A stretch of DNA of 20,586 nucleotides from a virus. A program made the position numbers and the translations under genes. The notes below the pieces were generated by a model. It worked only from the letters and a program-made list of their open reading frames with translations, made no database searches and was not told the origin of the DNA. Below are positions 1 through 19,657 of this stretch, piece by piece; positions within the stretch are counted from its first letter, which is position 1; each line of letters opens with the position of its first letter. The stretch covers positions 1 through 20,586 of the IMG/VR virus record IMGVR_UViG_3300025120_009600. One strand, 5' to 3'.

Positions 1-968
1 TTACAGATGATGTATTTGAAGATGTTGAAGATAATACTTCTCTAAAAGAAGATGACGATTACGAAGATATAGATTGGGATAATTATAATTATTATGAAGA
101 AGAAGATGGTCCTTTCTTAATTACAGGTGAAGAAGATTGGTGTAAAGAAGCTAGTTGGTGTGACGCAGCTTACATTGAGAATAATAATAAGTGGGCACAA
201 GGTGATTGGGATTTAAATACAAAGTACGATAAATGGAACTCTGAAAGTAAAAAACTATTTGAAGAAGTACACCTATCTTGGTATGATATGGATATGAAAG
301 AGGCACCTAAACCTTGGACTATACCAGAACTAAAAGACAAATATATTAAAGATTGGTCTTGGGACGATTGGGATATATGGTGGAAAAATTTTGATGAATG
401 GTATTATTCTGACTATTATGATAACTGGGAATCTACTTATGAAGAAGTATCACTAGAAGAAGAATATGCTTTTGAAGATGATCTACTTACCGAAGATCAA
501 TGGGAAACAGAATGGCTAGCAGGTATTACATTTGAGGCAGATTGTATATACTTTGGTTATTATTGGGACGTTGCTAATCAATCGTGTGGTACAACTTGGG
601 TAGATAACAGCGAAGCTAATGTTAAAGTAAAAGCAAGTGGTGAAAAAATTAATTATGAAACTGGTGAGATAACACAAACAATTACCACAACGACAAATGG
701 TGTATCTGATTCTGTCACTAGAACAGGTAGATATTCTACACTAAACAATACAGCAGATGTTGATGTAGAAACAGGTGATAATAATTTCCGTTCATTTACA
801 AGAACACACGAAGGACATACTTTTCACATACACACAGGTGGCAGTGGTGTAAATAGTGGTAATGATGCCATACAAAATTTTGATGTAATGGTTATACAGG
901 AACAAGAAACACAATCAGTTATAGCGGGCTCTAACGGCGCTAAGATCACCATTATACAGACAGACTAA
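1..968 (+). CDS. Acidic Trp/Tyr-rich protein of unknown function, 5' end missing
   Basis: The frame is open from the left edge (first full codon at base 3) to TAA at 966-968, giving 321 visible residues. An ATG lies at 288, but the same composition runs through it, so the gene very likely starts outside the window. Roughly the first 190 visible residues are extremely rich in Asp, Glu, Trp and Tyr (for example DWSWDDWDIWW). They include two close Cys pairs, WCKEASWC and a second pair about 15 residues apart. The last 130 or so residues are Thr/Ser/Gly/Asn-rich with alternating hydrophobic residues, suggesting a beta-rich domain. The gene ends 8 bases before the CHASE2 cyclase, so the two are probably co-transcribed. 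CHASE2 cyclases in bacteria are sometimes encoded beside exported FecR-like proteins, so an extracytoplasmic partner is possible, but I recognise no domain. The signal peptide, if any, is outside the window. Confidence 0.75.
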   Translation, partial: TDDVFEDVEDNTSLKEDDDYEDIDWDNYNYYEEEDGPFLITGEEDWCKEASWCDAAYIENNNKWAQGDWDLNTKYDKWNSESKKLFEEVHLSWYDMDMKEAPKPWTIPELKDKYIKDWSWDDWDIWWKNFDEWYYSDYYDNWESTYEEVSLEEEYAFEDDLLTEDQWETEWLAGITFEADCIYFGYYWDVANQSCGTTWVDNSEANVKVKASGEKINYETGEITQTITTTTNGVSDSVTRTGRYSTLNNTADVDVETGDNNFRSFTRTHEGHTFHIHTGGSGVNSGNDAIQNFDVMVIQEQETQSVIAGSNGAKITIIQTD

Positions 969-976
969 ATAAATCT

Positions 977-2710
977 ATGAAGAAATTAACTTCCACTTGG
1001 GCAGTATTGTTAAGTGTAATTATATTATTATCATTAAAAGTATATAATCCTATACCTTTACAAACTCTACAATTAAAAACATTTGATTTATACCAGAAGT
1101 TTGGTAATAATTATCAATCAAAAAGTTTAGTATTAATAGATATATCAGATGACTCTTTAGGTGTATATGGTCAATGGCCTTGGAAGAGAGATCAATTAGG
1201 TCGTGCTATAATAAAAGCATATCAAAATGGTGCTGCTTTAGTTTTTTTAAATGTAGTTTTTGTACATAAAGATAGACTAGGTGGTGATGAAATGTTTTTG
1301 AAAATGATCTCAAAGTATCCTGTTATTTTAACAGAAACTAAAGACGCAAAAAATCTCATTAGTATAAAAAGAAAAGTATTAGGTGTAGGTGATGTAGAAG
1401 TACCTATTGATGTTGATGGTACTATTAGAAAATTACCACTTGACAATTCTGTACCAAGTGTTATAATGAATGTAATAAAATTTCCATTACCTAAAATAGA
1501 TGATGTATGGATAGATTTTAGACATCAAATACCTAGGTTAAATCACGCTGATTTAGATTGGTCATCTGTTAAAGGTAAGATTGTATTCATAGGTGCTACA
1601 TTTACAGGCTCAACATTTGTATTAACACCTGATGGTTTAAAAAATCCACATGATATAATGGCAATGTCAACTGAAACTTTACTATCAGGTAAGTATATAA
1701 CAAGACCTGATTGGTTGCCTAAATTAGAGTGGATAGGATTGATATTAGGTCTACTTGCATTTGTATTAATTATACCTAGAGTAGGATTATTATGGTCAGC
1801 TATATTACTATTTGGTGCATATGTTGATATTGCTTTATCTGCTGGTTATCTATGGCATAGTAAAATGATAATTACAGATTGGTCATTTATCGCAATCATA
1901 ATAACTATTGTATGGACACACTTAATATACAATAACTTTGCTAGAGAAAATAGATTAAAACAACAAATAAGAAAACAGTTTGAGAAGTATTTGGATCCTA
2001 GACAAGTTGCTATACTTGTAAAGAATCCTGAAAAATTAAAACTTGGTGGTGAAAGAAAAGATATGTCATTTTTGTTTATGGATATTGTAGGATTTACACC
2101 TATATCTGAATACTATAAAAACAAAGATGACCCAGAGGGTTTGGTCAATGTGATAAATGATTACTTAAATCGTATGAGTAAAATAGTAATGAAGAATGGT
2201 GGAACGATTGACAAGTATATGGGCGATTGTATTATGGCATTTTGGAATGCGCCACTTGATTGTCGTAATCACGCAGAGATGGCTGTAAAGACAGGAATAG
2301 AATGTGCAATAGAAACACAAAAGTTAAAGAAAGAATTTAAAGAAAAAGGTCTACCAGATATTAATATAGGCTCTGGTGTAAATACTGGAACTTGTATTGT
2401 CGGTAATATGGGTAGTGAAAACCGACTTGATTATTCTGTAATAGGTGACGCTGTAAACTTGGCAGCTAGACTTGAAGCTGCTACAAGAAACTATAAAGAT
2501 GATAATGGTAATGTTGCTCCTTTGATTTATTCTTCATATACAAAAGACGAATTAAGAGAAGTTGAATCAGAAGAACTAGATAGAATATTTGTGAAAGGTA
2601 AAAAGGAGTTAGTGACAATCTATAAACCAGTAGCAAACTTAATGGAGGGTTATGACCTTACTTCAAAAGAGAAAGATCAGACTAATAGCAAAAAGGATAA
2701 TAAGAAATGA
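977..2710 (+). CDS. CHASE2-domain membrane adenylate cyclase (class III)
   Basis: A 577-residue membrane protein predicted to convert ATP to cAMP. Residues 5-20 form an N-terminal helix. Residues 45-240 match a CHASE2 sensor domain (LVLIDISDDSL, then GQWPWKR, then KGKIVFIGAT near 200-207), which is extracytoplasmic in known proteins. Three membrane helices follow at about 250-267, 272-292 and 300-318, then a short coiled linker and the cyclase domain at about 360-550. The catalytic set is intact: metal-binding Asp369 in FLFMDIVGFT and Asp417 in DKYMGD, adenine-selecting Lys413 and Asp485, and transition-state Asn494 and Arg498 in VIGDAVNLAAR. The Lys/Asp pair points to ATP rather than GTP. 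The tail is Lys-rich. The start ATG has only a weak ribosome site but begins a good membrane helix. The family is common in bacteria and unexpected inside a phage replication region. Confidence 0.93.
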   Translation: MKKLTSTWAVLLSVIILLSLKVYNPIPLQTLQLKTFDLYQKFGNNYQSKSLVLIDISDDSLGVYGQWPWKRDQLGRAIIKAYQNGAALVFLNVVFVHKDRLGGDEMFLKMISKYPVILTETKDAKNLISIKRKVLGVGDVEVPIDVDGTIRKLPLDNSVPSVIMNVIKFPLPKIDDVWIDFRHQIPRLNHADLDWSSVKGKIVFIGATFTGSTFVLTPDGLKNPHDIMAMSTETLLSGKYITRPDWLPKLEWIGLILGLLAFVLIIPRVGLLWSAILLFGAYVDIALSAGYLWHSKMIITDWSFIAIIITIVWTHLIYNNFARENRLKQQIRKQFEKYLDPRQVAILVKNPEKLKLGGERKDMSFLFMDIVGFTPISEYYKNKDDPEGLVNVINDYLNRMSKIVMKNGGTIDKYMGDCIMAFWNAPLDCRNHAEMAVKTGIECAIETQKLKKEFKEKGLPDINIGSGVNTGTCIVGNMGSENRLDYSVIGDAVNLAARLEAATRNYKDDNGNVAPLIYSSYTKDELREVESEELDRIFVKGKKELVTIYKPVANLMEGYDLTSKEKDQTNSKKDNKK

Positions 2711-4443: not shown

Positions 4444-6318
4444 ATGTCTGATAAGATAATTGGAATTGATTTAGGAACCACGAACTCTTGCGTTTCTATA
4501 ATGGAAGGAACACAAGCAAAAGTAATTGAAAATTTAGAAGGTAATAGAACTACTCCATCTGTTGTAGCATTTAGTGATGAGACTTTAGTTGGACAACCAG
4601 CTAGAAGACAAGCAGTTACAAACTCACAAAATACAATCTTTGCTGTAAAAAGATTAATAGGTAGAAACTTTGATGACAATAATATTCAAAGAGAAATAAA
4701 AACAATACCATATAATATTATTAAGGCAGATAATGGTGACGCTTGGGTAGAAGCTAAAAGTAAAAAATACTCACCATCACAAATTTCAGCATTTATCTTA
4801 CAAAAGATGAAAGAAACAGCTGAAAAATATCTAGGATCAGAAGTTAAGAAAGCAGTAATCACTGTACCAGCATATTTTAATGACTCACAAAGACAAGCAA
4901 CAAAAGACGCAGGTAAGATTGCTGGACTAGAAGTAGAAAGAATTGTAAATGAACCTACTGCTGCGTCATTGGCATATGGTTTAGATAAAAAGAAGACTGG
5001 TAACATCGCTGTATACGATCTAGGTGGTGGTACTTTTGATGTATCAATATTAGAAATAGGCGATGGTGTGTTTGAAGTTAAATCAACAAATGGTGATACA
5101 GCTTTAGGTGGCGAAGATTTTGATAGTGTTATTACAAACTATCTAATAGATGAGTTTAAAAAAGATAGTGGCATAGATTTAAAAGAAGACAAACTAGCAC
5201 TACAAAGAATTAGAGAGTCAGCAGAGAAGGCAAAGGTAGAGCTATCATCAGCGATACAGACAGACATAAATTTACCATTTATCACAGCAGACAAGTCAGG
5301 CCCTAAACATCTTAATATTAAAATGACTAGAGCGAAGTTAGAAGCTTTAGTAGAGAGCCTTATACAGAAAACTATAAAACCATGCGAGACTGCTATCAAA
5401 GATGCAGAACTAAAAGTATCAGATATAACAGATGTAATTTTAGTCGGTGGTATGACTAGAATGCCTAAGGTTATAGAAGTTGTAAAAAACTTCTTTGGTA
5501 GAGAACCAAACAAAAGTGTAAATCCAGATGAGGTAGTTGCGATGGGCGCAGCAGTTCAAGCTGGTGTTTTACAAGGTGATGTAAAAGATGTTCTGTTATT
5601 AGATGTGACACCACTATCACTAGGATTGGAAACTCTTGGTGGAGTGTTTACAAAACTAATAGATAAGAATACCACGATACCTTGTAATAAATCTCAAACA
5701 TTTTCTACTGCTGATAATAACCAATCTGCAGTATCAATTAGAGTTTTCCAAGGCGAGAGATCAATGGCAGCGGATAATAAACTATTAGGTAATTTTGATC
5801 TGGTAGGTATACCACCAGCACCAAAAGGTGTACCAAAAATAGAAGTGACTTTTGATATTGACGCTAATGGTATTGTAAAAGTATCAGCGAAAGATAAAGG
5901 AACTGGTAAAGAACAACAGATACAAATTAATTCATCTAGTGGATTAAGTGATGAAGAAATAAACAAGATGATAAAAGATGCTGAGGCAAATAAAGAAGCT
6001 GACGAGAAGAAAAAAGAAGAAGTTGATATAAGAAACCAAGCTGATGCTACAATCAATAGTGTTAAAAAGGTAATGGAAAGTGCCAAAGATAAATTATCAA
6101 AAGAAGAAATAGCAGATATAGAAGACAAGATAAAACAATTAGAAGAAGCAATCAAATCAAATAACATTGATGACATTAAGAAAAAGACTTCAGATTTATT
6201 AGATGCGTCTCATAAAATCGCAGAAAAGATTTATGCGCAACCTAAAGAAGAAGATAAAAAAGAAGAAGTTAAAAAAGATGATGATGTCATAGATGCTGAA
6301 TATACAGAAACAAAATAG
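4444..6318 (+). CDS. dnaK: Hsp70 chaperone DnaK, full length
   Basis: A 624-residue Hsp70 close in length to bacterial DnaK (638 in E. coli). The ATPase domain has phosphate-1 motif [10 protein letters not shown] (residues 6-15), catalytic Lys69 (AVKRLIGR), Glu170 in VNEPTAAS, phosphate-2 motif [10 protein letters not shown] (191-200, with Thr197) and adenosine motif [11 protein letters not shown] (331-341). The interdomain linker [13 protein letters not shown] is at 382-394. The substrate-binding beta domain runs to about 500, then comes the helical lid and a charged tail ending [13 protein letters not shown], like the bacterial DnaK C-terminus. Nothing is truncated. No dnaJ or grpE is nearby, so it presumably uses host co-chaperones. 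It sits between primase and nrdA, with AAAAAGG upstream and only 2 bases after primase. Acquisition from a bacterial host is the likely origin. Confidence 0.97.
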
Positions 6319-10558: not shown

Positions 10559-11114
10559 TTATAGTTTAACTAGTCCTGCTGTGTGTGTTACACAGGATTT
10601 TAAATTTGAAAACTCTTATTTTTACTACCTTACTAATAAGAAAAAATACATTGGTAATATGCGTAAGAACATTATAGGTTATGAACATAAATTATGGACG
10701 GATCCCATTGAAAGGTTTACTCAAATATCAGATTGGGTTATTAATCTACTTACACACATCACACCAGCAACACCAATAGACTTAACAGGTCCATACAAAA
10801 CATTTATAGAAGGTTATTCATTTGGCTCTAAAGGTCAAGCAGTTTTTCAGATAGCAGAAAACTGTGGTATACTAAAATATAGATTACAAGAAAAGAAATA
10901 TCCATATGATACTGTGGTACCTAGTGTGGTTAAGAAAGGTGCATCTGGTAAAGGTAATGCTGATAAACAATTCATGTATGAGAGTTTTACTAAACATACA
11001 GGTGTTGATTTATTAGAAACCTTTGAGACAGAAAAATTAAACAATCCAGTTACAGATATTATAGATAGTTATTATATAGCAAAAGTTGGTTATGAAAATT
11101 CAAGTGGTCACTAG
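10506..11114 (+). CDS. RuvC-like Holliday-junction endonuclease
   Basis: Up to 202 residues with an RNase H/RuvC fold pattern. The first catalytic Asp18 is on strand 1 (TIVGIDYSLTSPAVCV), Glu102 is in KTFIEGYSFGSKG, and an Asp pair at 184 and 187 lies in VTDIIDSYYIAK. Between them are a helix (QIAENCGILKYRL) and the basic segment KKGASGKGNADK seen in RuvC-like nucleases. It would cut branched DNA during replication, recombination or packaging, a job done in T4 by endonuclease VII. The start is uncertain: ATG 10506 or ATG 10518 (MKYQKKQQT), with AGAGGA at 10498-10503 poorly spaced for both. It overlaps the zinc-ribbon gene by 41-53 bases and overlaps the next gene's start. Confidence 0.82.
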   Translation: MVKSMKYQKKQQTIVGIDYSLTSPAVCVTQDFKFENSYFYYLTNKKKYIGNMRKNIIGYEHKLWTDPIERFTQISDWVINLLTHITPATPIDLTGPYKTFIEGYSFGSKGQAVFQIAENCGILKYRLQEKKYPYDTVVPSVVKKGASGKGNADKQFMYESFTKHTGVDLLETFETEKLNNPVTDIIDSYYIAKVGYENSSGH

Positions 11115-11787
11115 TTGGAACAATAAGTTATACGAAGAATACGCACATAGGTTTAAAGAAACATATCAATGGCCTTTTGATTTAGTTGTTTATAATGAAG
11201 ATGAGGATATGTTTGATAAGATACCTAATCTTAAAAAATTCATAGAGAGAAATAAACATAGAGAGGTAGCATCATTTAAGCAAGATGGTGTAAGATTTTC
11301 ATATAAAGTTTATGCATATACACACGCCATAGAAAATTGTCCGAGTGATGTAGATGGTTTAATTTGTATTGACGCTGATAGTGTGTTTTACAAATCAATA
11401 GATGTAGATTGGATTAAAAAACATATTCACAAAGACGATTGTATGATGAGTTATCTAGGTCGTGGTAACCATTACAGTGAGTGTGGTTTTTTATATTTTA
11501 ATATGCAACATGATCAAACAAGAAACTATGCTAGTCATATGAAAAAGATGTATGATGATGATGAGATATATAGTTTAAGTGAATACCACGATAGTTATAT
11601 TTGGGATTATGTTAGAAAAATTTTTGAACAGAATATGAAAGTAACAAATAATAATATTGGTGACAATGAAGGTGGGCATGTACAAGTCAGATCAATATTA
11701 GGAACTGTTTACGATCACACTAAAGGTAAAAGAAAAATAACTGGTGTAAGTCCAGAATGGATAAATCAAACAAAAGGAAAACAATGA
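11092..11787 (+). CDS. GT-A-like glycosyltransferase, first of the glycan cluster
   Basis: 231 residues starting MKIQVVTSWNNKLYEEYAHR. The DxD-type motif Asp94-Ala-Asp96 in LICIDADSVFY, after a run predicted as Rossmann-like strands, fits a metal-dependent GT-A enzyme using a nucleotide sugar. CGFLYFNM and HDSYIWDY further on resemble acceptor-side elements of such enzymes, and VYDHTKGKRK lies near the C-terminus. There is no membrane segment, so it should be cytoplasmic. The ATG at 11092 is chosen because an upstream in-frame TTG (11086) has no advantage. The gene overlaps the RuvC-like gene by 23 bases and the lipoprotein gene by an ATGA junction. The donor and acceptor are unknown. Confidence 0.72.
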   Translation: MKIQVVTSWNNKLYEEYAHRFKETYQWPFDLVVYNEDEDMFDKIPNLKKFIERNKHREVASFKQDGVRFSYKVYAYTHAIENCPSDVDGLICIDADSVFYKSIDVDWIKKHIHKDDCMMSYLGRGNHYSECGFLYFNMQHDQTRNYASHMKKMYDDDEIYSLSEYHDSYIWDYVRKIFEQNMKVTNNNIGDNEGGHVQVRSILGTVYDHTKGKRKITGVSPEWINQTKGKQ

Positions 11788-11978
11788 AAAAAATATTAAC
11801 AATCATAGTTGCAAGTTTAATTGTAACTGCTTGTTCTGTTAAAGAACCTAGATTGTCAGTAGGTAAAAAATGTACCATAAAAGATGATAAAGTAGTTTAC
11901 TCATACTTATGGTTGTACGATAAACAAGTAGGTCTTCCAGCAGACAAAGAAGCTTGTAAAGAAATAGCAAGTGATTAA
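11784..11978 (+). CDS. Small lipoprotein, 64 residues
   Basis: MKKILTIIVASLIVTACSVK is a clear lipoprotein signal: basic start, hydrophobic core and a lipobox ending at Cys17. The mature part would be about 48 residues with two further Cys (KKCTIKDD and EACKEI) that could form a disulfide. Ser at +2 favours the outer membrane under the E. coli sorting rule. The ATG at 11784 overlaps the previous stop (ATGA) and has GGAAAA upstream, which favours it over an in-frame ATG at 11757. Small phage lipoproteins can be outer-membrane spanins or superinfection-exclusion proteins. Nothing here decides between these. Confidence 0.8.
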   Translation: MKKILTIIVASLIVTACSVKEPRLSVGKKCTIKDDKVVYSYLWLYDKQVGLPADKEACKEIASD

Positions 11979-12402
11979 TAGAAAAAAAATATTAATAATG
12001 GGATTACCTGGTAGTGGAAAGACTACAATCGCAAAACTACTTGTGCCAATGTTTAACGCTGTATGGTTAAACGCTGACGAAGTTAGAAAAGAGGCAGACG
12101 ATTGGGACTTCTCACCAGCAGGTAGAACTAGACAAGCAGAGAGAATGAAATCTTTTGCTAAGAAAGCATTAGATGAAAATAGAAATGTTATAGCAGACTT
12201 TGTGTGTCCAACAAAACAAACTAGAGCAGACTTTAATGCTGACTATGTTATATGGATGGACACAATAAAAGAGGGTAGATTTGAAGATACAAACAAAATG
12301 TTTGAAGCTCCTAAGAATCCAGATTTTATAGTCAGACACTTTGATGCTGATATGTGGGCTTATTTAATTAAACAGGATATATATGATCAATTGGGACAAT
12401 AA
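11971..12402 (+). CDS. P-loop kinase of the adenylylsulfate (APS) kinase family
   Basis: 143 residues. Walker A is GLPGSGKTT (11-19), directly after strand KKILIM. The pattern that follows, WLNADEVRKEADDWDFS, then GRTRQAERMKSFAKKALDE and NVIADFVCPTKQTR, mirrors CysC (LDGD-NVR, a basic helix, and FISP-YR). FEAPKNPDF near the C-terminus matches the EAPENPD segment of CysC. It is shorter than typical CysC (about 200), and the DGD motif reads NAD, so the substrate may not be APS. The start is GTG 11971, overlapping the lipoprotein stop. The next ATG (11998) would remove the first strand. A nucleotidyltransferase overlaps its end by 20 bases, so the two may act in sequence. Confidence 0.78.
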   Translation: MINRKKILIMGLPGSGKTTIAKLLVPMFNAVWLNADEVRKEADDWDFSPAGRTRQAERMKSFAKKALDENRNVIADFVCPTKQTRADFNADYVIWMDTIKEGRFEDTNKMFEAPKNPDFIVRHFDADMWAYLIKQDIYDQLGQ

Positions 12403-12754
12403 AAAACCAACAGCACAGATGTTAGGTAGATGGCAACCTTGGCATGCAGGTCATCAAAAATTATTTGAAGAAACTCTGAAAAGAGCTGAACAAGTATTGA
12501 TTATGGTAAGAGATATACAAGGTGTTGGTGATAATCCATTTGACTTTGAAACTGTTAAGAAGAATATAGAAGAAAAACTTAACCCAAAGTATAAAGGTAA
12601 GTTTAAAATTATATTAGTACCAAATATCACAAACATATGTTATGGTAGAGGTGTTGGTTATAAAATAGAAGAAATAGTATTAGACAAAGAAACACAAAAG
12701 ATTTCTGCAACTAAAATTAGGCAACAAATGAGAGACCACGGAGATTTGATATGA
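12383..12754 (+). CDS. HxGH nucleotidyltransferase (NMNAT/cytidylyltransferase superfamily)
   Basis: 123 residues. MLGRWQPWHAGHQKLFEE carries the HxGH signature (21-24) that binds the nucleotide phosphates, and ISATKIRQQMR (107-117) is the matching ISxTxxR signature. NPFDF near 51-55 resembles the NPF segment of NadM-type nicotinamide-mononucleotide adenylyltransferases. It would transfer AMP or CMP from the triphosphate to a phosphorylated substrate. Because the preceding, overlapping gene is a kinase, an obvious reading is kinase then nucleotidyltransferase, making an activated donor such as a nucleotide-linked polyol or choline-like group. A role in NAD metabolism is the main alternative. 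Translation starts at ATG 12383 inside the kinase gene and the end overlaps the next start (ATGA). Confidence 0.8.
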   Translation: MINWDNKKPTAQMLGRWQPWHAGHQKLFEETLKRAEQVLIMVRDIQGVGDNPFDFETVKKNIEEKLNPKYKGKFKIILVPNITNICYGRGVGYKIEEIVLDKETQKISATKIRQQMRDHGDLI

Positions 12755-13425
12755 TTAAAATTTTTATAGGATATGATGATAACGAAAAGGTAGCGTTTAG
12801 TACATTAAGTCATAGTTTATTAAAACACTCAACACAACCTATCTCTATAACTCCAATACGATTACAAAACATAAAAGACATATTTGTTAGAGAAAGAGTA
12901 AAAATACAATCAACAGAATTTGCTTTTAGTAGATTTCTTGTACCATATCTTTGTAACTATTCTGGTCACGCTATCTTTATAGATTGTGATATGTTAGCTC
13001 GTGATGATATATCATTATTGTGGCGACAAAGAACTACCAAATATGCTGTTCAATGTGTACAACACGATTACACACCTAATAGTACAATTAAATTTTTAAA
13101 TCAACCACAAACAACATATCCTAAAAAGAACTGGTCTAGTATGATGATATTTAATAATTCTAAATGTACAGCATTAACACCTGATTATGTTAATAGTGCC
13201 ACAGGTTTAGAACTACATCAATTTAAATGGTTAGAAAGAGAAGAGCTAATTGGTAATATAGATGTAGAATGGAATCATTTAATTGGTGAGTATCAATATA
13301 ATCATAGTGCAAAGTTAGTACACTATACAAACGGTGGACCATATTTTAAAAAGTATAAAGATTGTGATTATTCAAACGAGTGGTTTGATATGTACGAAGA
13401 TTCAAATAAAATTAATTTAGAATAA
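12751..13425 (+). CDS. GT8-like glycosyltransferase
   Basis: 224 residues with the pattern of LPS-type GT-A enzymes. It opens IKIFIGYDDNEKVAF, followed by the conserved STEFAFSRFLVPYL. The DxD motif FIDCDML (Asp78 and Asp80) lies at the end of a strand. Further on are KNWSSMMIFNN, WNHLIGEY and LVHYTNGGPYF, where the last His could complete metal binding. It probably transfers a sugar from a nucleotide donor in the cytoplasm. It is coupled at both ends: an ATGA overlap with the nucleotidyltransferase and a TAATG overlap with the next gene. Acceptor unknown. This is the most confidently placed glycosyltransferase of the cluster. Confidence 0.83.
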   Translation: MIKIFIGYDDNEKVAFSTLSHSLLKHSTQPISITPIRLQNIKDIFVRERVKIQSTEFAFSRFLVPYLCNYSGHAIFIDCDMLARDDISLLWRQRTTKYAVQCVQHDYTPNSTIKFLNQPQTTYPKKNWSSMMIFNNSKCTALTPDYVNSATGLELHQFKWLEREELIGNIDVEWNHLIGEYQYNHSAKLVHYTNGGPYFKKYKDCDYSNEWFDMYEDSNKINLE

Positions 13426-14366
13426 TGAAAACTTTAAATATCTATTTAAAAACCACAAGTGGTAGTAAAGTAGATAAGTTATTAGCATTTGGTAAAGGTG
13501 CTGAGAAACATGGAATAAAAGTTAATTATTGTGATGATAATTTTTTTACACCATCAGATTATAGTTTTATATTTTCTTATAAATCAAATGATATAAATTC
13601 TAAAAGTCACAATTTAAGACAAGAGATTGTTGATAAAAAAACAGATAAACAAATATTCTTTTTAGATAGTAATGTTTTAGGTCATTATGAAAAAGAAAAA
13701 GATATACAAAATGTTTATCGTAGATACCCTTATAGATCAATTCACTCACACGAAGCAGATTTTTTACCCTTAGATGATACATCATTTAAAAGAACAGATC
13801 AAGTTAAAAAAGAATTAGGTTTACAAATGAAAGATTGGCGTAAAACAGGTAATCATATATTGGTATGTTTAAATAGAGGTAGCGGTGGTTTCTCATCTTT
13901 TGGTAAAGGTTGTTACGAATGGGCAAGAGAAGTCGTACAAAAAATAAGATTATATACAGACAGAAAAATTATTATAAGATCACATAAACATTTTGTTTAT
14001 ACAGATAAGTTAAAAGAAGATCAAAAGAATTTAAATTGGATATTACAAAATATTAAAAATGTAGAGCACACATCTATTGAAAAAACAAATTTAATAGATG
14101 ATTTAAAAAATGCTTGGGCATGTGTGGTTTATACTTCTACATCTGGCGCTATAGCTATGATGCAAGGTGTTCCTGTATTTGTAACTCACCCTGCTTGTTT
14201 TTTCAGATTGTATGGCTCTGGTGGTATAGGTCAAATAGAAAACCCAATGATACCAAACAGAGCTATGTTTATGACTTACTATGTAAACTCACATTGGAGT
14301 TTAAAAGAAGTAGAAGACGGACACTATTGGGAAAAGTTTAAAAAATATCGTATGGAGGCAGAATGA
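13425..14366 (+). CDS. GT-B-like protein, paralogue 1 of 3
   Basis: 313 residues, not matched to a named family. The C-terminal half has a GT-B-like layout also seen in the genes at 14363 and 18166. WRKTGNHILVCLNR (138-151) is followed by KIRLYTDRKIIIRSH (173-187), then LKNAWACVVYTSTSGAIAMM (227-246) with GVPVFVTHPA. A tail with NSHWSLKEVEDG (288-299) ends the pattern. In capsule and LPS transferases of this type, such Ser/Thr-rich turns and the following GVP segment bind the nucleotide donor. The N-terminal half is more divergent. It may be a glycosyltransferase or glycerophosphotransferase-like enzyme. The start overlaps the previous stop (TAATG) and the end overlaps the next start (ATGA). 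Confidence 0.65.
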   Translation: MKTLNIYLKTTSGSKVDKLLAFGKGAEKHGIKVNYCDDNFFTPSDYSFIFSYKSNDINSKSHNLRQEIVDKKTDKQIFFLDSNVLGHYEKEKDIQNVYRRYPYRSIHSHEADFLPLDDTSFKRTDQVKKELGLQMKDWRKTGNHILVCLNRGSGGFSSFGKGCYEWAREVVQKIRLYTDRKIIIRSHKHFVYTDKLKEDQKNLNWILQNIKNVEHTSIEKTNLIDDLKNAWACVVYTSTSGAIAMMQGVPVFVTHPACFFRLYGSGGIGQIENPMIPNRAMFMTYYVNSHWSLKEVEDGHYWEKFKKYRMEAE

Positions 14367-15280
14367 ATATCATAGGTATACAAGGTGCTTTTAATACAGA
14401 GGCAATGTTTATATTTCCTAAACACGAAGACTTTAAACTAATAGAATATCCAGAAAGACATAATAATAAAGCAGACGCTTACATACAAACAAATGTATTA
14501 GGTGTGATGAAAACTAAGAACGCAGAGAAGTATCAATTTATATTAGACCAAAACAAACCTAGAATAGTAATAGAACAAGCAACTTTTAGAAAAAATTTAG
14601 ATATAGAAAAACCAAATGATTATTATTTTAGAGTTGGTTTAAATCACTATACTTTTAATGATGGTATATTTAAAAATCAAAACTCGCCAGCTGATAGATG
14701 GAAACAAATACAAAGAGAACAAGACATAGAAATAAAACCTTGGAAGAATAAAGGTGATTACATATTAATACTTACACAAAATCCTATTGATACAAGTCTA
14801 CATGATTTAGTAAAGAAACAAGGTGACTATGAAAACTTTATTATGAATACCATCAATGAAATATCAAAGCATACAGATGAAGATATAATGATAAGACCAC
14901 ACCCACGATTTACATTTAGATTTAATAAAGATACATTGAAAGATATTAAAGTTAAAAACAAAGTATTCTTTAGTGAGAACTTAAATAACTTTAATGTGAC
15001 CAATGGTGGTGAAGATATATACAAAGACTTTAAGAATGCCAGAGTTGCAATCTCATATTCAAGTAATAGTTTAACAGAAGCTATTTGTGAGGGTATACCA
15101 AGTATCGCATTGTCTAAAACATCACACACATGGCCTGTGGCGTTTCATACACTAGAAGTATTAAAACATAAAGAGTTGCCAGAGTTTGATAGAACACAAT
15201 GGTTAAATGATTGTGCTTACACACAATGGAAAATGTCAGAAATAAATAGTGGTATAGTACACAAAAGGTTATTAGTATGA
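14363..15280 (+). CDS. GT-B-like protein, paralogue 2 of 3
   Basis: 305 residues with the same architecture as its neighbours at 13425 and 18166. Segments in order are YYFRVGLNHYTFNDG (87-101), WKNKGDYILILTQNP (127-141), EDIMIRPHPRFTF (173-185), FKNARVAISYSSNSLTEAI (223-241) with CEGIPSIALSKTS, WLNDCAYTQWKMSEINSG (280-297). The IRPHPR element and the SSNS...EG-P turn resemble those of polysaccharide KDO- or glycerophosphotransferases. No signal peptide or membrane helix is visible. It is coupled by ATGA overlaps at both ends. Function beyond a likely glycan transferase is not supported. Confidence 0.65.
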   Translation: MNIIGIQGAFNTEAMFIFPKHEDFKLIEYPERHNNKADAYIQTNVLGVMKTKNAEKYQFILDQNKPRIVIEQATFRKNLDIEKPNDYYFRVGLNHYTFNDGIFKNQNSPADRWKQIQREQDIEIKPWKNKGDYILILTQNPIDTSLHDLVKKQGDYENFIMNTINEISKHTDEDIMIRPHPRFTFRFNKDTLKDIKVKNKVFFSENLNNFNVTNGGEDIYKDFKNARVAISYSSNSLTEAICEGIPSIALSKTSHTWPVAFHTLEVLKHKELPEFDRTQWLNDCAYTQWKMSEINSGIVHKRLLV

Positions 15281-15879
15281 AAGAAAAAGTAATTGAAGAT
15301 TATAGTTTAAAACCTAATCATCTAGGTGGTCATTTAAATAGAACAAATTTAGATAAACCATTATTAGAATACTTAAAAAAGAATCACAATATTAATTCTA
15401 TGTTAGATATAGGTTGTGGTACAGGTGGTATCAAAAAGATCGCTGATGATTTAAAAATTAATTGGTTTGGAGTTGACGGAGACCCATCTATTAAGTTACC
15501 AGAGAATACATTATTACACGACTTTGCTGAAGGTCAAGCAACAATAGATAAAACTTTTGATCTAGTATGGTGTGTAGAATTTTTAGAGCATGTAGAAGAA
15601 AAATATATACCAAACTATATGCCTTTATTTAAGTTAGGTAAACTAGCTGTAGTCACTGCAGCACCTCCAGGTTGGCCAGGACATCACCATGTAAATTGTA
15701 GAGAGAAAAGTTATTGGGTAGATGTATTTAAAAAGTATGGATTAAACTATGATAGTGCATTAACAGGACAATTTAAATCTGTATCTAAAATGAATCCAAA
15801 AGAAGGATATACATATGGTGATAAGAAGAACTTTTTTTTACAAGCAGGATTAGTATTTACAAATGGCAATAGAACTTAA
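15277..15879 (+). CDS. SAM-dependent methyltransferase (class I)
   Basis: 200 residues. Motif I is SMLDIGCGTGG (41-51), with the acidic end of strand 2 in WFGVDGDPS (63-71). Motif IV is TFDLVWCVEFLEHVEE (93-108), of the EHV type frequent in small-molecule and glycan methyltransferases. PGHHHVNCREKSYW further on places a His-rich loop near the likely active site. It would transfer a methyl group from S-adenosylmethionine. The setting suggests a sugar or lipid acceptor, but a small metabolite is possible. It begins in an ATGA overlap and overlaps the sulfotransferase start by 17 bases. Confidence 0.85.
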   Translation: MKEKVIEDYSLKPNHLGGHLNRTNLDKPLLEYLKKNHNINSMLDIGCGTGGIKKIADDLKINWFGVDGDPSIKLPENTLLHDFAEGQATIDKTFDLVWCVEFLEHVEEKYIPNYMPLFKLGKLAVVTAAPPGWPGHHHVNCREKSYWVDVFKKYGLNYDSALTGQFKSVSKMNPKEGYTYGDKKNFFLQAGLVFTNGNRT

Positions 15880-16471
15880 AAACTCAATGTTTATCCACAT
15901 ACCAAAGTGTGGTGGAAGAACAGTAAAACAGATGTTAAAGAAATATGTATCTGGCGCTAAAGTTATTGATGATGATATTTATGATAGTCACGCCACACCT
16001 GATACTGATAAAAAAGTATTTGGTTTTATAAGACACCCAGCAACATTTATTCATAGTCTTTGGACACATAGAAGTAAGAAGAAAAAGCATGGTGAAGCTT
16101 GGAACTGGCAAACATATATTGCGTTAGAAGAAAAGTGTCAATCAAAAAATTATAACGAGTTTGTAGAAAATATAATAAAAGGTAGAAACTATGTGTTTGA
16201 TTACTATATGCATTACCTAGGAAAATACAAAAGTCCTATGATAGGTAAAATGGAAGAACTACCAGATAGTTTGATAGGTATACTAAAAGAGAACAACGAA
16301 GACTTTGATGAAAAAGGTATTAGAGAAAACATTTATGTGCATGGCGCTAATAATAAAGACACAAACAAGCCAATAACTTTAGCAGATACTATGAGTTATG
16401 ATCAGATAAAGAAACTATTAACTCAGGCAGAAACAAAATTACATAAGGACTTTGACTACCATGCGTTTTGA
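15863..16471 (+). CDS. Sulfotransferase-family protein
   Basis: 202 residues. The N-terminal strand-loop-helix NSMFIHIPKCGGRTVKQML contains the PKxGxxT-type 5'-phosphosulfate loop (14-20), and FGFIRHPATFIHSLW (53-67) is the 3'-phosphate motif with Arg57 and Ser65. Both are hallmarks of PAPS-dependent sulfotransferases acting on carbohydrates (Sulfotransfer family 2). It would move a sulfuryl group from PAPS to a glycan or small molecule. An APS-kinase-like gene lies 3.5 kb upstream in the same gene run, so the donor could be phage-boosted. The start is ATG 15863 or in-frame ATG 15887 (MFIHIPKCGG). The first overlaps the previous gene by 17 bases, the second clears it. No membrane anchor is seen, unlike Golgi enzymes. 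Confidence 0.8.
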   Translation: MAIELKNSMFIHIPKCGGRTVKQMLKKYVSGAKVIDDDIYDSHATPDTDKKVFGFIRHPATFIHSLWTHRSKKKKHGEAWNWQTYIALEEKCQSKNYNEFVENIIKGRNYVFDYYMHYLGKYKSPMIGKMEELPDSLIGILKENNEDFDEKGIRENIYVHGANNKDTNKPITLADTMSYDQIKKLLTQAETKLHKDFDYHAF

Positions 16472-17486
16472 TAATCCTATTTACGATCATGGTTTTGTGT
16501 TTCCTGACATCGCTGACTTTCCAGATGTAAAACACGAAAGACACTACATGGGTAATGGCCATGAGGAATATGTATCTGTGATGAAAGAAGGAATACAAAA
16601 AGGTGATCTACATACATTTGAAAGAGGCTATCAATGGTATATGAAAGTGCCAGATACAAAACTAATGACAAAATTAAACACAATGTTTGAGTTTTATAAG
16701 ACCTTTGAAGATAATAAAATAGAGAGTAGTTTACCTAGTAATGATATATACGAAGACCTATACGAAAATGGTATATCGTATCTAAAAATAGATACAAAAG
16801 AATTAAGAGATATGGTTGATGATGAGATTAAAAAGTTAATCGTATTACCTGATTGGCGACCACCACCAGGTCAATTTGATAGATCAACTCAACTAGGTCA
16901 ACTAAATCCAGACATAGTAAAATATGTAAATCATATGTTTCAAAAACTTGGTATACTAAATGCAGTAACAAAATATAACAAGCAAAATTCATTACAAGTA
17001 AAGAATGTGGTATTACATATCGCTAAACCTACAGACGAAAATTGGAAACAATTTTTGTATGATTGTAAAACTGTGACTAAAACAACTAACTTACACATAG
17101 ACCCAAAAGAAAATGTAATGAAAGCTATGATGTATCTAAATGATATTACTGAAGATCATGGTCCATTTGGTTATGTAGAAAAATCTCATAGATGGGTATA
17201 TGATGATTTACAAAACATATTTGGTAGAGCCATATCGACTGGTAGTTATTGTCACAATCCAAAATCTAGAGCTGCGGTATTTCAATTTCCAAAACAATTA
17301 AGAGTATCACATAACTTTGGTAGATTATTATTAGATGATACAGATGAACAAGAAAGAATATTAAAACAAGAAAAAATATTTACTAGTGACAAAGGCAACT
17401 TATGTGTCTTTGACCCAGCTGGTATGCATAGAGGAGGAATTTGTAAAACAGGAACCAGAATTGCTTTACAAATATTAATGAAATGA
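16461..17486 (+). CDS. PhyH-like Fe(II)/2-oxoglutarate dioxygenase
   Basis: 341 residues starting MRFDNPIYDHGFVFPD. The iron site of the double-stranded beta-helix fold is visible: His212 and Asp214 (NLHIDPKEN) and His323 (DPAGMHRGG), with Arg333 (GTRIALQ) placed to bind 2-oxoglutarate. MMYLNDITEDHGPFGYVEKSH (in part) is the characteristic strand and turn after the HxD motif in PhyH and related enzymes. The N-terminal 160 residues are not recognised. It would hydroxylate or otherwise oxidise a substrate, perhaps the glycan, a lipid or a sugar precursor. ATG 16461 is chosen over the TTG at 16452. It overlaps the sulfotransferase gene by 11 bases and the next gene by ATGA. Confidence 0.8.
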   Translation: MRFDNPIYDHGFVFPDIADFPDVKHERHYMGNGHEEYVSVMKEGIQKGDLHTFERGYQWYMKVPDTKLMTKLNTMFEFYKTFEDNKIESSLPSNDIYEDLYENGISYLKIDTKELRDMVDDEIKKLIVLPDWRPPPGQFDRSTQLGQLNPDIVKYVNHMFQKLGILNAVTKYNKQNSLQVKNVVLHIAKPTDENWKQFLYDCKTVTKTTNLHIDPKENVMKAMMYLNDITEDHGPFGYVEKSHRWVYDDLQNIFGRAISTGSYCHNPKSRAAVFQFPKQLRVSHNFGRLLLDDTDEQERILKQEKIFTSDKGNLCVFDPAGMHRGGICKTGTRIALQILMK

Positions 17487-18169
17487 TATTAAATGATAGT
17501 GTATTAAACAAAAGAGTATTTAAACAACATATATTAGATTTACATTTAAAAGATTTTATGTTAGGTCAAACAACACCATATCTTAATACATTTAAAAATA
17601 CGATAGATGTAGGTGCGGCAACTGGTATGTATGCTAGTCACTTTGCTAAACACTCTAAAAATGTCATATGTTTTGAAGCTGTAAAACCTGTTTACACACA
17701 ATTAGAAAAGATAAAACAAAAATATAATAATGTTACAACTCATAACTTTGCTGTAAGTGACTTTGAAGGTGTGTCAGATTTCTATGTAGATGACAAGAGA
17801 TTATCTAATTCTAGTTTTCAAAATCTAGTAGAAGGTCAAAAGATAGAAGTAGAAACTGTAACTATTGATGGTATGAAATTTGTTGATATTGGTTTCATAA
17901 AAATAGATGTTGAGGGCGTAGAGTTAGATGTATTAAATGGTGCTAGTCAAACCATAGATGAATACAAACCAACTTGTATGGTTGAAATTTACGCAAAGTT
18001 TAATAAGTATCCAGTAGAGACTTCATTTGAATTTTTCTTTGCCAGAGATTATAGATGTTTTTATAATCATAAAGGTCAAGGTTTAAAACCAGTAAGAACA
18101 ATAGAAGAAGGTATAGAGGCTACAAAGATACCAGAAATAACAGATGGTGATTTTTTATTTACAATATGA
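17483..18169 (+). CDS. FkbM-family methyltransferase
   Basis: 228 residues. The SAM-binding motif is NTIDVGAATGMYASHF (39-54), followed by VICFEAVKPVYTQLEKI (61-77). The FkbM hallmark is FIKIDVEGVELDVLNGA (138-154). NFAVSDFEG and a small extra strand region lie between. These enzymes O-methylate sugars and other small molecules, and are frequent in capsule, LPS and phage glycan clusters. It is coupled by ATGA overlaps on both sides. This is a second, unrelated-looking methyltransferase 2 kb after the first, so two different positions may be methylated. Confidence 0.9.
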   Translation: MILNDSVLNKRVFKQHILDLHLKDFMLGQTTPYLNTFKNTIDVGAATGMYASHFAKHSKNVICFEAVKPVYTQLEKIKQKYNNVTTHNFAVSDFEGVSDFYVDDKRLSNSSFQNLVEGQKIEVETVTIDGMKFVDIGFIKIDVEGVELDVLNGASQTIDEYKPTCMVEIYAKFNKYPVETSFEFFFARDYRCFYNHKGQGLKPVRTIEEGIEATKIPEITDGDFLFTI

Positions 18170-18978
18170 TTATAACACACAATATTCCGTGGGACAAATG
18201 CTTATCTCATCAATTATTTACAGCTATAAAAAAAGGTTGGAAAGATACATCTATGAAACCCATACATTTTTTTTGGGGTTTAGGTTCTAACAATCTACAA
18301 GAGATAAAACAAGTAAAAGAAAAGGGTGAAGAATGGTGGTATATAGATGTGGGTTATATCACAGAACAAATTACAAGATACCCAATACCAATAATCAACG
18401 ATTACGATAAGACATACTTTAGAATAATAAAAGGTGATATGCATATGCAGGGTGGTTTACCTGAAGATGGATCACGCTATAAAAAACTATTACATCAAGG
18501 TATTGATGCAGAATTTAAAGGTTGGAATACTGGTGAATGTAAACACATATTACTAGCGCCATCATCACAAACTGTTTGTATATTTAAAAATGATATGTCG
18601 CAAGAAGAATGGATACAAGAAGCTAAAGAACAAATAAGATGCTATACAGATAGACCTATTATTATAAGAAACAAACCTAGACCTAATAACGAATGGTGGG
18701 GTACAGATATAAAAGATGAACTAAAAGATTGTCACGCATTAGTGACTAATATGAGTTTGTCCGCAATAGATGCTGTGTTAAATAAAGTGCCAGTGGTCAC
18801 TCATAAAAATAATGTATGTTATCCTGTGTCATTTAGATTAGAAAGTATAAATGAATTTAGAATGCCAGCAAGAGAAGATATGACTATGTGGTTAAATTGT
18901 GTGGCCAATAATCAATTCACTTTACAAGAGATAGAAGATGGTTTAGCATATGAGGTTCTAAATAAACAATATGGTTAA
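18166..18978 (+). CDS. GT-B-like protein, paralogue 3 of 3
   Basis: 270 residues. It shares with the genes at 13425 and 14363 the order CKHILLAPSS (125-134), IRCYTDRPIIIRNKPRP (157-173), LKDCHALVTNMSLSAIDAVL (186-205) with NKVPVVTHKNN, MWLNCVANNQFTLQEIEDG (241-259). The N-terminal half (IPWDKCLSHQLFTAIKKGW) is closer to a compact alpha/beta domain and is shorter than in the others. HPRP is replaced by NKPRP here. It is probably a glycan transferase related by old duplication, separated from its relatives by four decoration genes. It starts in an ATGA overlap and overlaps the next gene by 8 bases. Confidence 0.62.
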   Translation: MIITHNIPWDKCLSHQLFTAIKKGWKDTSMKPIHFFWGLGSNNLQEIKQVKEKGEEWWYIDVGYITEQITRYPIPIINDYDKTYFRIIKGDMHMQGGLPEDGSRYKKLLHQGIDAEFKGWNTGECKHILLAPSSQTVCIFKNDMSQEEWIQEAKEQIRCYTDRPIIIRNKPRPNNEWWGTDIKDELKDCHALVTNMSLSAIDAVLNKVPVVTHKNNVCYPVSFRLESINEFRMPAREDMTMWLNCVANNQFTLQEIEDGLAYEVLNKQYG

Positions 18979-19657
18979 TTTTGCTTGTGTATTTTATGGT
19001 GACAAATATACTTTCCCATATGTAAGAAATTTACATAGTATGGTTGAAAGAAACTTAACCATACCACATAGGTTTATTTGCTTTACAGATAATACTGTTA
19101 TTCATAGACAGAAAGAATTTAAAAATACCAACATAGAATTTAAACAATTTAAGAGACACGATTTTGAGGGTTGGTTTAATAAATTACAATTGTTTAGTCC
19201 TGATAGTGGTATAGAGGGTAATACTTTATATATGGATTTAGATGTGGTAATAATGAATAATATAGATTGTTTTTTTGAGATAGGTAAAGAAAAGAACTTT
19301 GTAGGTATGAATGACTTTAATCCTACGAGTGGTCTATTTAATTCTAGTATAATGAGATTTAATAATCAGTATCATAGTAAGATAATATGGAAAGACTATA
19401 TTAAAAGAAGAAGTGATTTTAATAGTTTCCATGGTGACCAAGAAATAATATCAGAACTTATAAAGAAACACGAAAACACTATTTCGTTTCCAGATGATTG
19501 GACACAATCATATAAGTGGTTGAATCGTAAGGGTGATAGATACCACATATCAAAACAAACATACGAACAAGACACAAATGCCAAGGTTTGTGTGTTCCAC
19601 GGTAGTCCAAATCCACATGACTCAACTCAGGAATGGGTCAAATCATTGTGGAAATAG
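18971..19657 (+). CDS. GT-A-like glycosyltransferase, last gene of the glycan cluster
   Basis: 228 residues starting MVNFACVFYGDKYTFPYVRN. A Rossmann-like N-terminal half leads to the DxD motif LYMDLDVVIM (Asp89 and Asp91), preceded by WFNKLQLF, which is common in this type of enzyme. FHGDQEII (153-160) supplies a likely catalytic acid, Asp156. VCVFHGSPNPHD near the C-terminus offers a His that could bind the metal. It is probably a cytoplasmic, metal-dependent sugar transferase. Its stop codon lies inside an inverted repeat at 19655-19672. The gene run ends here, before an intergenic region with a new promoter. Confidence 0.8.
   Translation: MVNFACVFYGDKYTFPYVRNLHSMVERNLTIPHRFICFTDNTVIHRQKEFKNTNIEFKQFKRHDFEGWFNKLQLFSPDSGIEGNTLYMDLDVVIMNNIDCFFEIGKEKNFVGMNDFNPTSGLFNSSIMRFNNQYHSKIIWKDYIKRRSDFNSFHGDQEIISELIKKHENTISFPDDWTQSYKWLNRKGDRYHISKQTYEQDTNAKVCVFHGSPNPHDSTQEWVKSLWK

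Follow-up and report, generated by a model that had tools for sequence, protein, structure and literature searches.

A putative FecR-linked CHASE2 adenylate cyclase at the end of a phage curli module, with sensor and catalytic halves of apparently different origin

We analysed a viral DNA fragment of 20,586 nucleotides (20.6 kb; hereafter the window) that carries a gene for a membrane-bound class IIIb cyclase and whose host is a presumed one. A cAMP sensor linked to FecR and coupled to export is the best-supported account of this gene as a functional phage cyclase, and we consider it moderately probable. The periplasmic CHASE2 domain would read the state of a FecR-domain partner from the phage-borne curli export module, the cytoplasmic catalytic domain would answer by making cAMP, and the signal would report fibre or envelope assembly. 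Physical contact between FecR and CHASE2, ATP as the substrate and activity as a dimer are presumed in this account. A Sinorhizobium CyaD1 construct without CHASE2 produces cAMP constitutively, indicating that CHASE2 can serve as a regulatory brake (PMC5498481). The features on which the analysis rests are as follows.

3..968, plus strand: C-terminal part, 321 aa, of a long FecR protein with its 5' end beyond the window; matches the L002 ORF at 431 bits (phmmer)
L002 6528-8885: full-length FecR-acidic-curlin homolog, 785 aa, FecR domain at residues 58-154 (FecR Pfam E 2.4e-7)
977..2710, plus strand: CHASE2-class III (IIIb-type) adenylate cyclase, predicted, 577 aa, frame open and intact
998..1045, plus strand: N-terminal membrane helix, residues 8-23 (AlphaFold2/DSSP helix)
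1007..1762, plus strand: CHASE2 periplasmic sensor domain, residues 11-262, curli-B sensor type (Pfam PF05226, E 4.6e-26)
1712..1984, plus strand: three membrane helices, residues 246-269, 271-296 and 302-336, the last extending into the linker (AlphaFold2)
1958..1969, plus strand: apparent recombination junction at about codons 328-331, LK/QQ, left side like L001/L004, right side like L045-L047
2057..2617, plus strand: class III cyclase catalytic domain, residues 361-547, A-type catalytic module (Pfam PF00211 Guanylate_cyc, E 1.4e-18)
2081..2083, plus strand: Asp369, first metal ligand, in 84/84 phage homologs
2213..2227, plus strand: Lys413 (adenine selection) to Asp417 (second metal ligand), each in 84/84
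2435..2437, plus strand: Ser487, the true second base-selecting position, aligned with Thr of P. aeruginosa CyaB, in 82/84
2456..2470, plus strand: Asn494 and Arg498, transition-state residues (homolog alignment)

Both the CHASE2 and the Guanylate_cyc matches exceed the Pfam cut-off. An AlphaFold2 model of the cyclase (mean pLDDT 84.5, from a 39-sequence alignment) consists of an N-terminal helix, an alpha/beta domain, three long helices and a cyclase domain. Cya2, P. aeruginosa CyaB and Spirulina CyaC are among its best fold matches in the PDB. The first-pass annotation had described CHASE2, three membrane helices and a cyclase. All of these were recovered by Pfam and AlphaFold2, but a fourth helix, at the N-terminus, had been overlooked. 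CHASE2 is thus preceded by one membrane helix at the N-terminus and followed by three more, the layout of a CHASE2 receptor, and the class III character of the protein is seen in its Guanylate_cyc domain, two metal-binding Asp residues and the transition-state Asn and Arg. A search for Rfam elements within the 20.6-kb window returned none.

We next consider the active site. The metal, adenine-selecting and transition-state residues are retained in 82 to 84 of the 84 phage homologs aligned, and the earlier assignments of Asp369, Lys413, Asp417, Asn494 and Arg498, all nearly invariant, stand. The assignment of Asp485 as base selector does not: this residue is conserved in 82/84 but lies outside the base-selecting pair in the CyaB alignment, and the partner of Lys413 is Ser487. 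In class IIIb cyclases, the base-selecting Thr position is found seven residues before the catalytic Asn. When rmDYTIIGREVN of CyaB is aligned with RLDYSVIGDAVN of the window protein, the Thr position falls on Ser487. CyaB, Spirulina CyaC and Synechocystis Cya2, whose catalytic domains are class IIIb-like, share the catalytic fold and the metal and transition-state residues with the window protein, whereas their sensors differ. Cya2, a guanylyl cyclase, has Glu at the Lys413 position, and Ser487 replaces the Thr of CyaB. By alignment to CyaB and Cya2, Lys413 and Ser487 provide the Lys plus Thr/Ser/Asp pair of ATP-type base selection. Domains and conserved residues therefore support the original reading of a complete, probably ATP-specific cyclase with a predicted periplasmic sensor.

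The cyclase gene is under strong purifying selection. In within-family comparisons, dN/dS of the catalytic domain was 0.03-0.11 for most pairs and reached 0.14 for one, and sensor values ranged over 0.07-0.24; pairs between swapped domains are near saturation and uninformative. Together with the intact frame, the low catalytic values across copies uphold the view that the gene is not a decayed passenger. Its location in a phage genome was likewise borne out, because the downstream order of DUF7201, T4-like primase and nrdA is common to many IMG/VR contigs. At least 597 IMG/VR stretches match the window cyclase. Matches to an Acinetobacter phage MD-2021a cyclase were set aside, as the same records carry bacterial tRNA and dnaK. 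In the window itself, a full-length DnaK (4444-6318, plus strand) lies between primase and nrdA, which follow each other directly in the relatives examined; the nearest genomes to this DnaK are SAR11-like (74%). Further along, a run of small ORFs (11086-19657, plus strand) resembles glycosyltransferase, methyltransferase and sulfotransferase-type genes when judged by eye, and is probably a surface-modification region.

The curli/FecR module had escaped the first-pass annotation because the window starts inside the cluster. Judged by homologous ORFs, the cyclase appears to be the gene that closes a curli/FecR export module carried by the phage. The product of ORF 3-968, directly upstream, has an acidic middle and a curlin-like C-terminal repeat, and the whole FecR protein is seen in L002; csgF, csgG and the FecR domain itself would lie beyond the window edge, as relatives suggest. 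As only 8 bp separate the end of the FecR ORF from the cyclase start, the two are probably in one operon. Among phage loci with at least 2 kb of upstream sequence, curli/FecR neighbours were found in 42/42 and csgF or csgG in 36/42. These genes are on the same strand as the cyclase in 27 of the 42 loci and divergent from it in the other 15, indicating that the link outlasts rearrangement.

A phage CHASE2-cyclase is already known. Homologs are annotated in HTVC008M (host Pelagibacter HTCC1062) and four Melnitz isolates, and an adenylate cyclase and FecR have been reported in a curli (type VIII secretion) cluster of alphaproteobacterial origin in pelagiphage myoviruses and podoviruses (PMC9599517). 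The main text of two other curli papers does not mention the cyclase. HTVC008M gp019 resembles the window protein in combining CHASE2 with a class III cyclase, in being the last gene past FecR/curlin and in belonging to a T4-like marine phage lineage. The two are 47% identical overall, with a catalytic domain at 84% and a CHASE2 of a different type (~26%). The FecR partner in the window is a long FecR-acidic-curlin fusion, and HTVC008M, unlike the window, has tail genes downstream of the cyclase. Methylophilales phage Melnitz gp104 shares the cluster and the domain order but is only 30% identical, and its catalytic domain is of a third type. The Melnitz enzyme (L082 14932-16983), in which Ser takes the place of Asn494 and Asp that of Ser487, may be less active.

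Identity to relatives changes in a step within the protein. Residues 1-325 are ~90% identical to L001 and 28% identical to L045, whereas residues 328-549 are ~96% identical to L045 and 55% identical to L001. A DNA comparison reproduced the step, which lies at LK/QQIRKQF, just past the last membrane helix. In trees, the window sensor groups with L001/L007/L004 and its catalytic domain with L045-L047, and an L002/L003 chimera represents a separate event. Sorting 152 phage and related proteins yielded four main groups of sensors, found joined to two main groups of catalytic domains, and both reciprocal curli combinations occur. The window protein thus appears to be a sensor/catalytic chimera, with independent swaps elsewhere, a feature new to this analysis. 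The earlier worry about joined sequence thus returns in another form: the protein itself is apparently a domain chimera, but similar chimeras arose independently on other contigs. Could metagenome assembly have joined two phage populations inside a conserved stretch? There is a single junction, in a short stretch common to both parents, and no second contig with the parental combination of the window was found among the records searched, from which near-identical ones may have been withheld (a junction scan gave three contigs, all of the L002 kind). However, L002 and the contigs behind L003/L010, which come from three separate assemblies, show a similar junction between other parents, reciprocal chimeras exist and the reading frame is unbroken, so that we regard an artefact as decidedly unlikely. 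Such swaps suggest that CHASE2 is matched to its export partner.

FecR type tracks CHASE2 type and not cyclase type, a relation also new here. The two types agreed in every curli locus compared (49/49), also in the 6 whose catalytic domains are swapped; Melnitz was binned in this typing against two catalytic exemplars, though its catalytic domain is of the third type. Linkage alone could account for the co-inheritance of FecR and CHASE2, whose genes are usually close in the genome. Outside phages, a FecR ORF lies within 400 bp of a related CHASE2-cyclase in 15 of 80 cellular loci, 14 of them without nearby curli. Alphaproteobacterial pairs of this kind resemble the window in that the FecR gene adjoins the cyclase; they differ in being cellular, 27-42% identical (best segment) and mostly without curli, and in that some FecR partners are giant cadherin (cadherin/laminin-G) or RTX proteins. 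A literature search within the library used found nothing combining a FecR domain, an adenylate cyclase and cadherin. The pairing makes FecR a concrete candidate ligand for CHASE2. Besides domains, fold, catalytic residues and selection, we count for the sensor account the curli/FecR neighbourhoods (42/42), the type match (49/49), the cellular FecR pairs (15/80) and FecR in adhesins of type I secretion systems (T1SS), described below.

One cellular locus, L084 3992-10049 from a Caulobacteraceae MAG, shows the gene order of the phages, csgF-csgG-curlin-curlin-FecR-cyclase; its flanking genes look cellular. It fits an alternative in which the cyclase came along with the curli cluster from an alphaproteobacterium as a hitch-hiker and is kept only since the genes of the cluster travel together, with little use for its cAMP in the phage; the lack of a receptor in most presumed hosts and in the phage relatives searched (see below) fits as well. 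By contrast, the catalytic codons are under strong purifying selection, the catalytic domain has been replaced repeatedly by intact ones, and the cyclase is retained in rearranged, divergent clusters. Hitch-hiking is thus an unlikely explanation.

An active cyclase would mean that some phages of the most abundant ocean bacteria bring cAMP synthesis into cells in which, for the most part, neither class III cyclases nor CRP seem to occur. The genome order with the best match to the window DnaK was taken as SAR11-like because its GC content is 28.8% over the 400 kb read, its genome measures 1.2 Mb and proteorhodopsin is present in 37/40. A tRNA comparison with pelagiphages added nothing to this assignment but unrelated tRNA-Met matches. 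Using Pfam cNMP_binding and HTH_Crp_2 as receptor models and class III as the cyclase search, we found a class III cyclase in 0/297 genomes of this order, a CRP-type HTH over the cut-off in 0/97 and a cNMP-binding domain in 6/97, all weak matches. The one of these six that was read, L180 919-3264, is a cNMP-binding domain fused to an acyltransferase. No cNMP-binding domain was found in the phage records searched, many of which are fragments.

These counts go against the earlier proposal that cAMP made by the phage enzyme acts through host CRP to reset transcription, nutrient uptake or defence, as does the infection of SAR11 by HTVC008M. In favour of a CRP reset, the enzyme looks active by its residues, and other genomes of the class encode many cNMP-binding proteins, so that a host outside SAR11 could respond; the host is, after all, a presumed one. 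Even so, we find a reset through CRP very unlikely. If the host is SAR11-like, host CRP is unlikely as the effector, which would then have to be some protein other than CRP or be located outside the cell that is infected. The absence of a receptor from phage relatives and most presumed hosts searched also counts against the sensor account, which leaves the output unexplained, and would suit a product acting outside the usual cAMP pathway. The signal might exit via the CsgG pore or lysis, or drain or decoy nucleotide signals, for example in defence. Published phage clusters do include an outer-membrane pore (PMC9599517, PMC9004378), but the predicted topology places the catalytic site in the cytoplasm, and we rate such a route as improbable as hitch-hiking. 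An active cyclase would also make two matters directly testable, namely the missing receptor and what the curli cluster of these phages is for, a question since 2020.

In addition to the curli-associated enzymes, we found a second family of phage CHASE2-cyclases, new here, beside T1SS genes and adhesins with FecR. In L085 and its viral relatives, the cyclase adjoins an outer-membrane efflux protein, an HlyD protein, an ABC-type membrane protein and a giant adhesin. This neighbourhood was present in 18/24 loci with at least 1.5 kb upstream, and FecR was over the Pfam cut-off in 5/6 giant adhesins scanned. The catalytic domain of L085 is ~80% identical to those of curli-type cyclases, whereas the sensors are ~27% identical. 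Searches of the T1SS-type records for Gp23 and Terminase_6N were nearly all negative, and two of these records had no head or tail gene in common with HTVC008M (phmmer); the same two were kept as phages because they carry a T4-type DNA polymerase and baseplate or tail-fibre genes. Extending the sensor account, marine T4-like phages might use a general FecR-CHASE2-cyclase sensor for surface-polymer export. Its sensor half would be co-inherited with the export system (curli, or T1SS with FecR-cadherin adhesins), its catalytic half would be freely swapped, and its cAMP would act without CRP via an undescribed receptor. We offer this generalization tentatively and hold it to be doubtful. The membrane protein of L085 (3950-4696, 248 aa) is of the T1SS ABC type without a Pfam match or an ATPase domain. 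Two CHASE2 cyclases each, one T1SS-adjacent and one curli-adjacent, are present in L209 (1899-3848 and 8839-10533), L272 and L268/L029.
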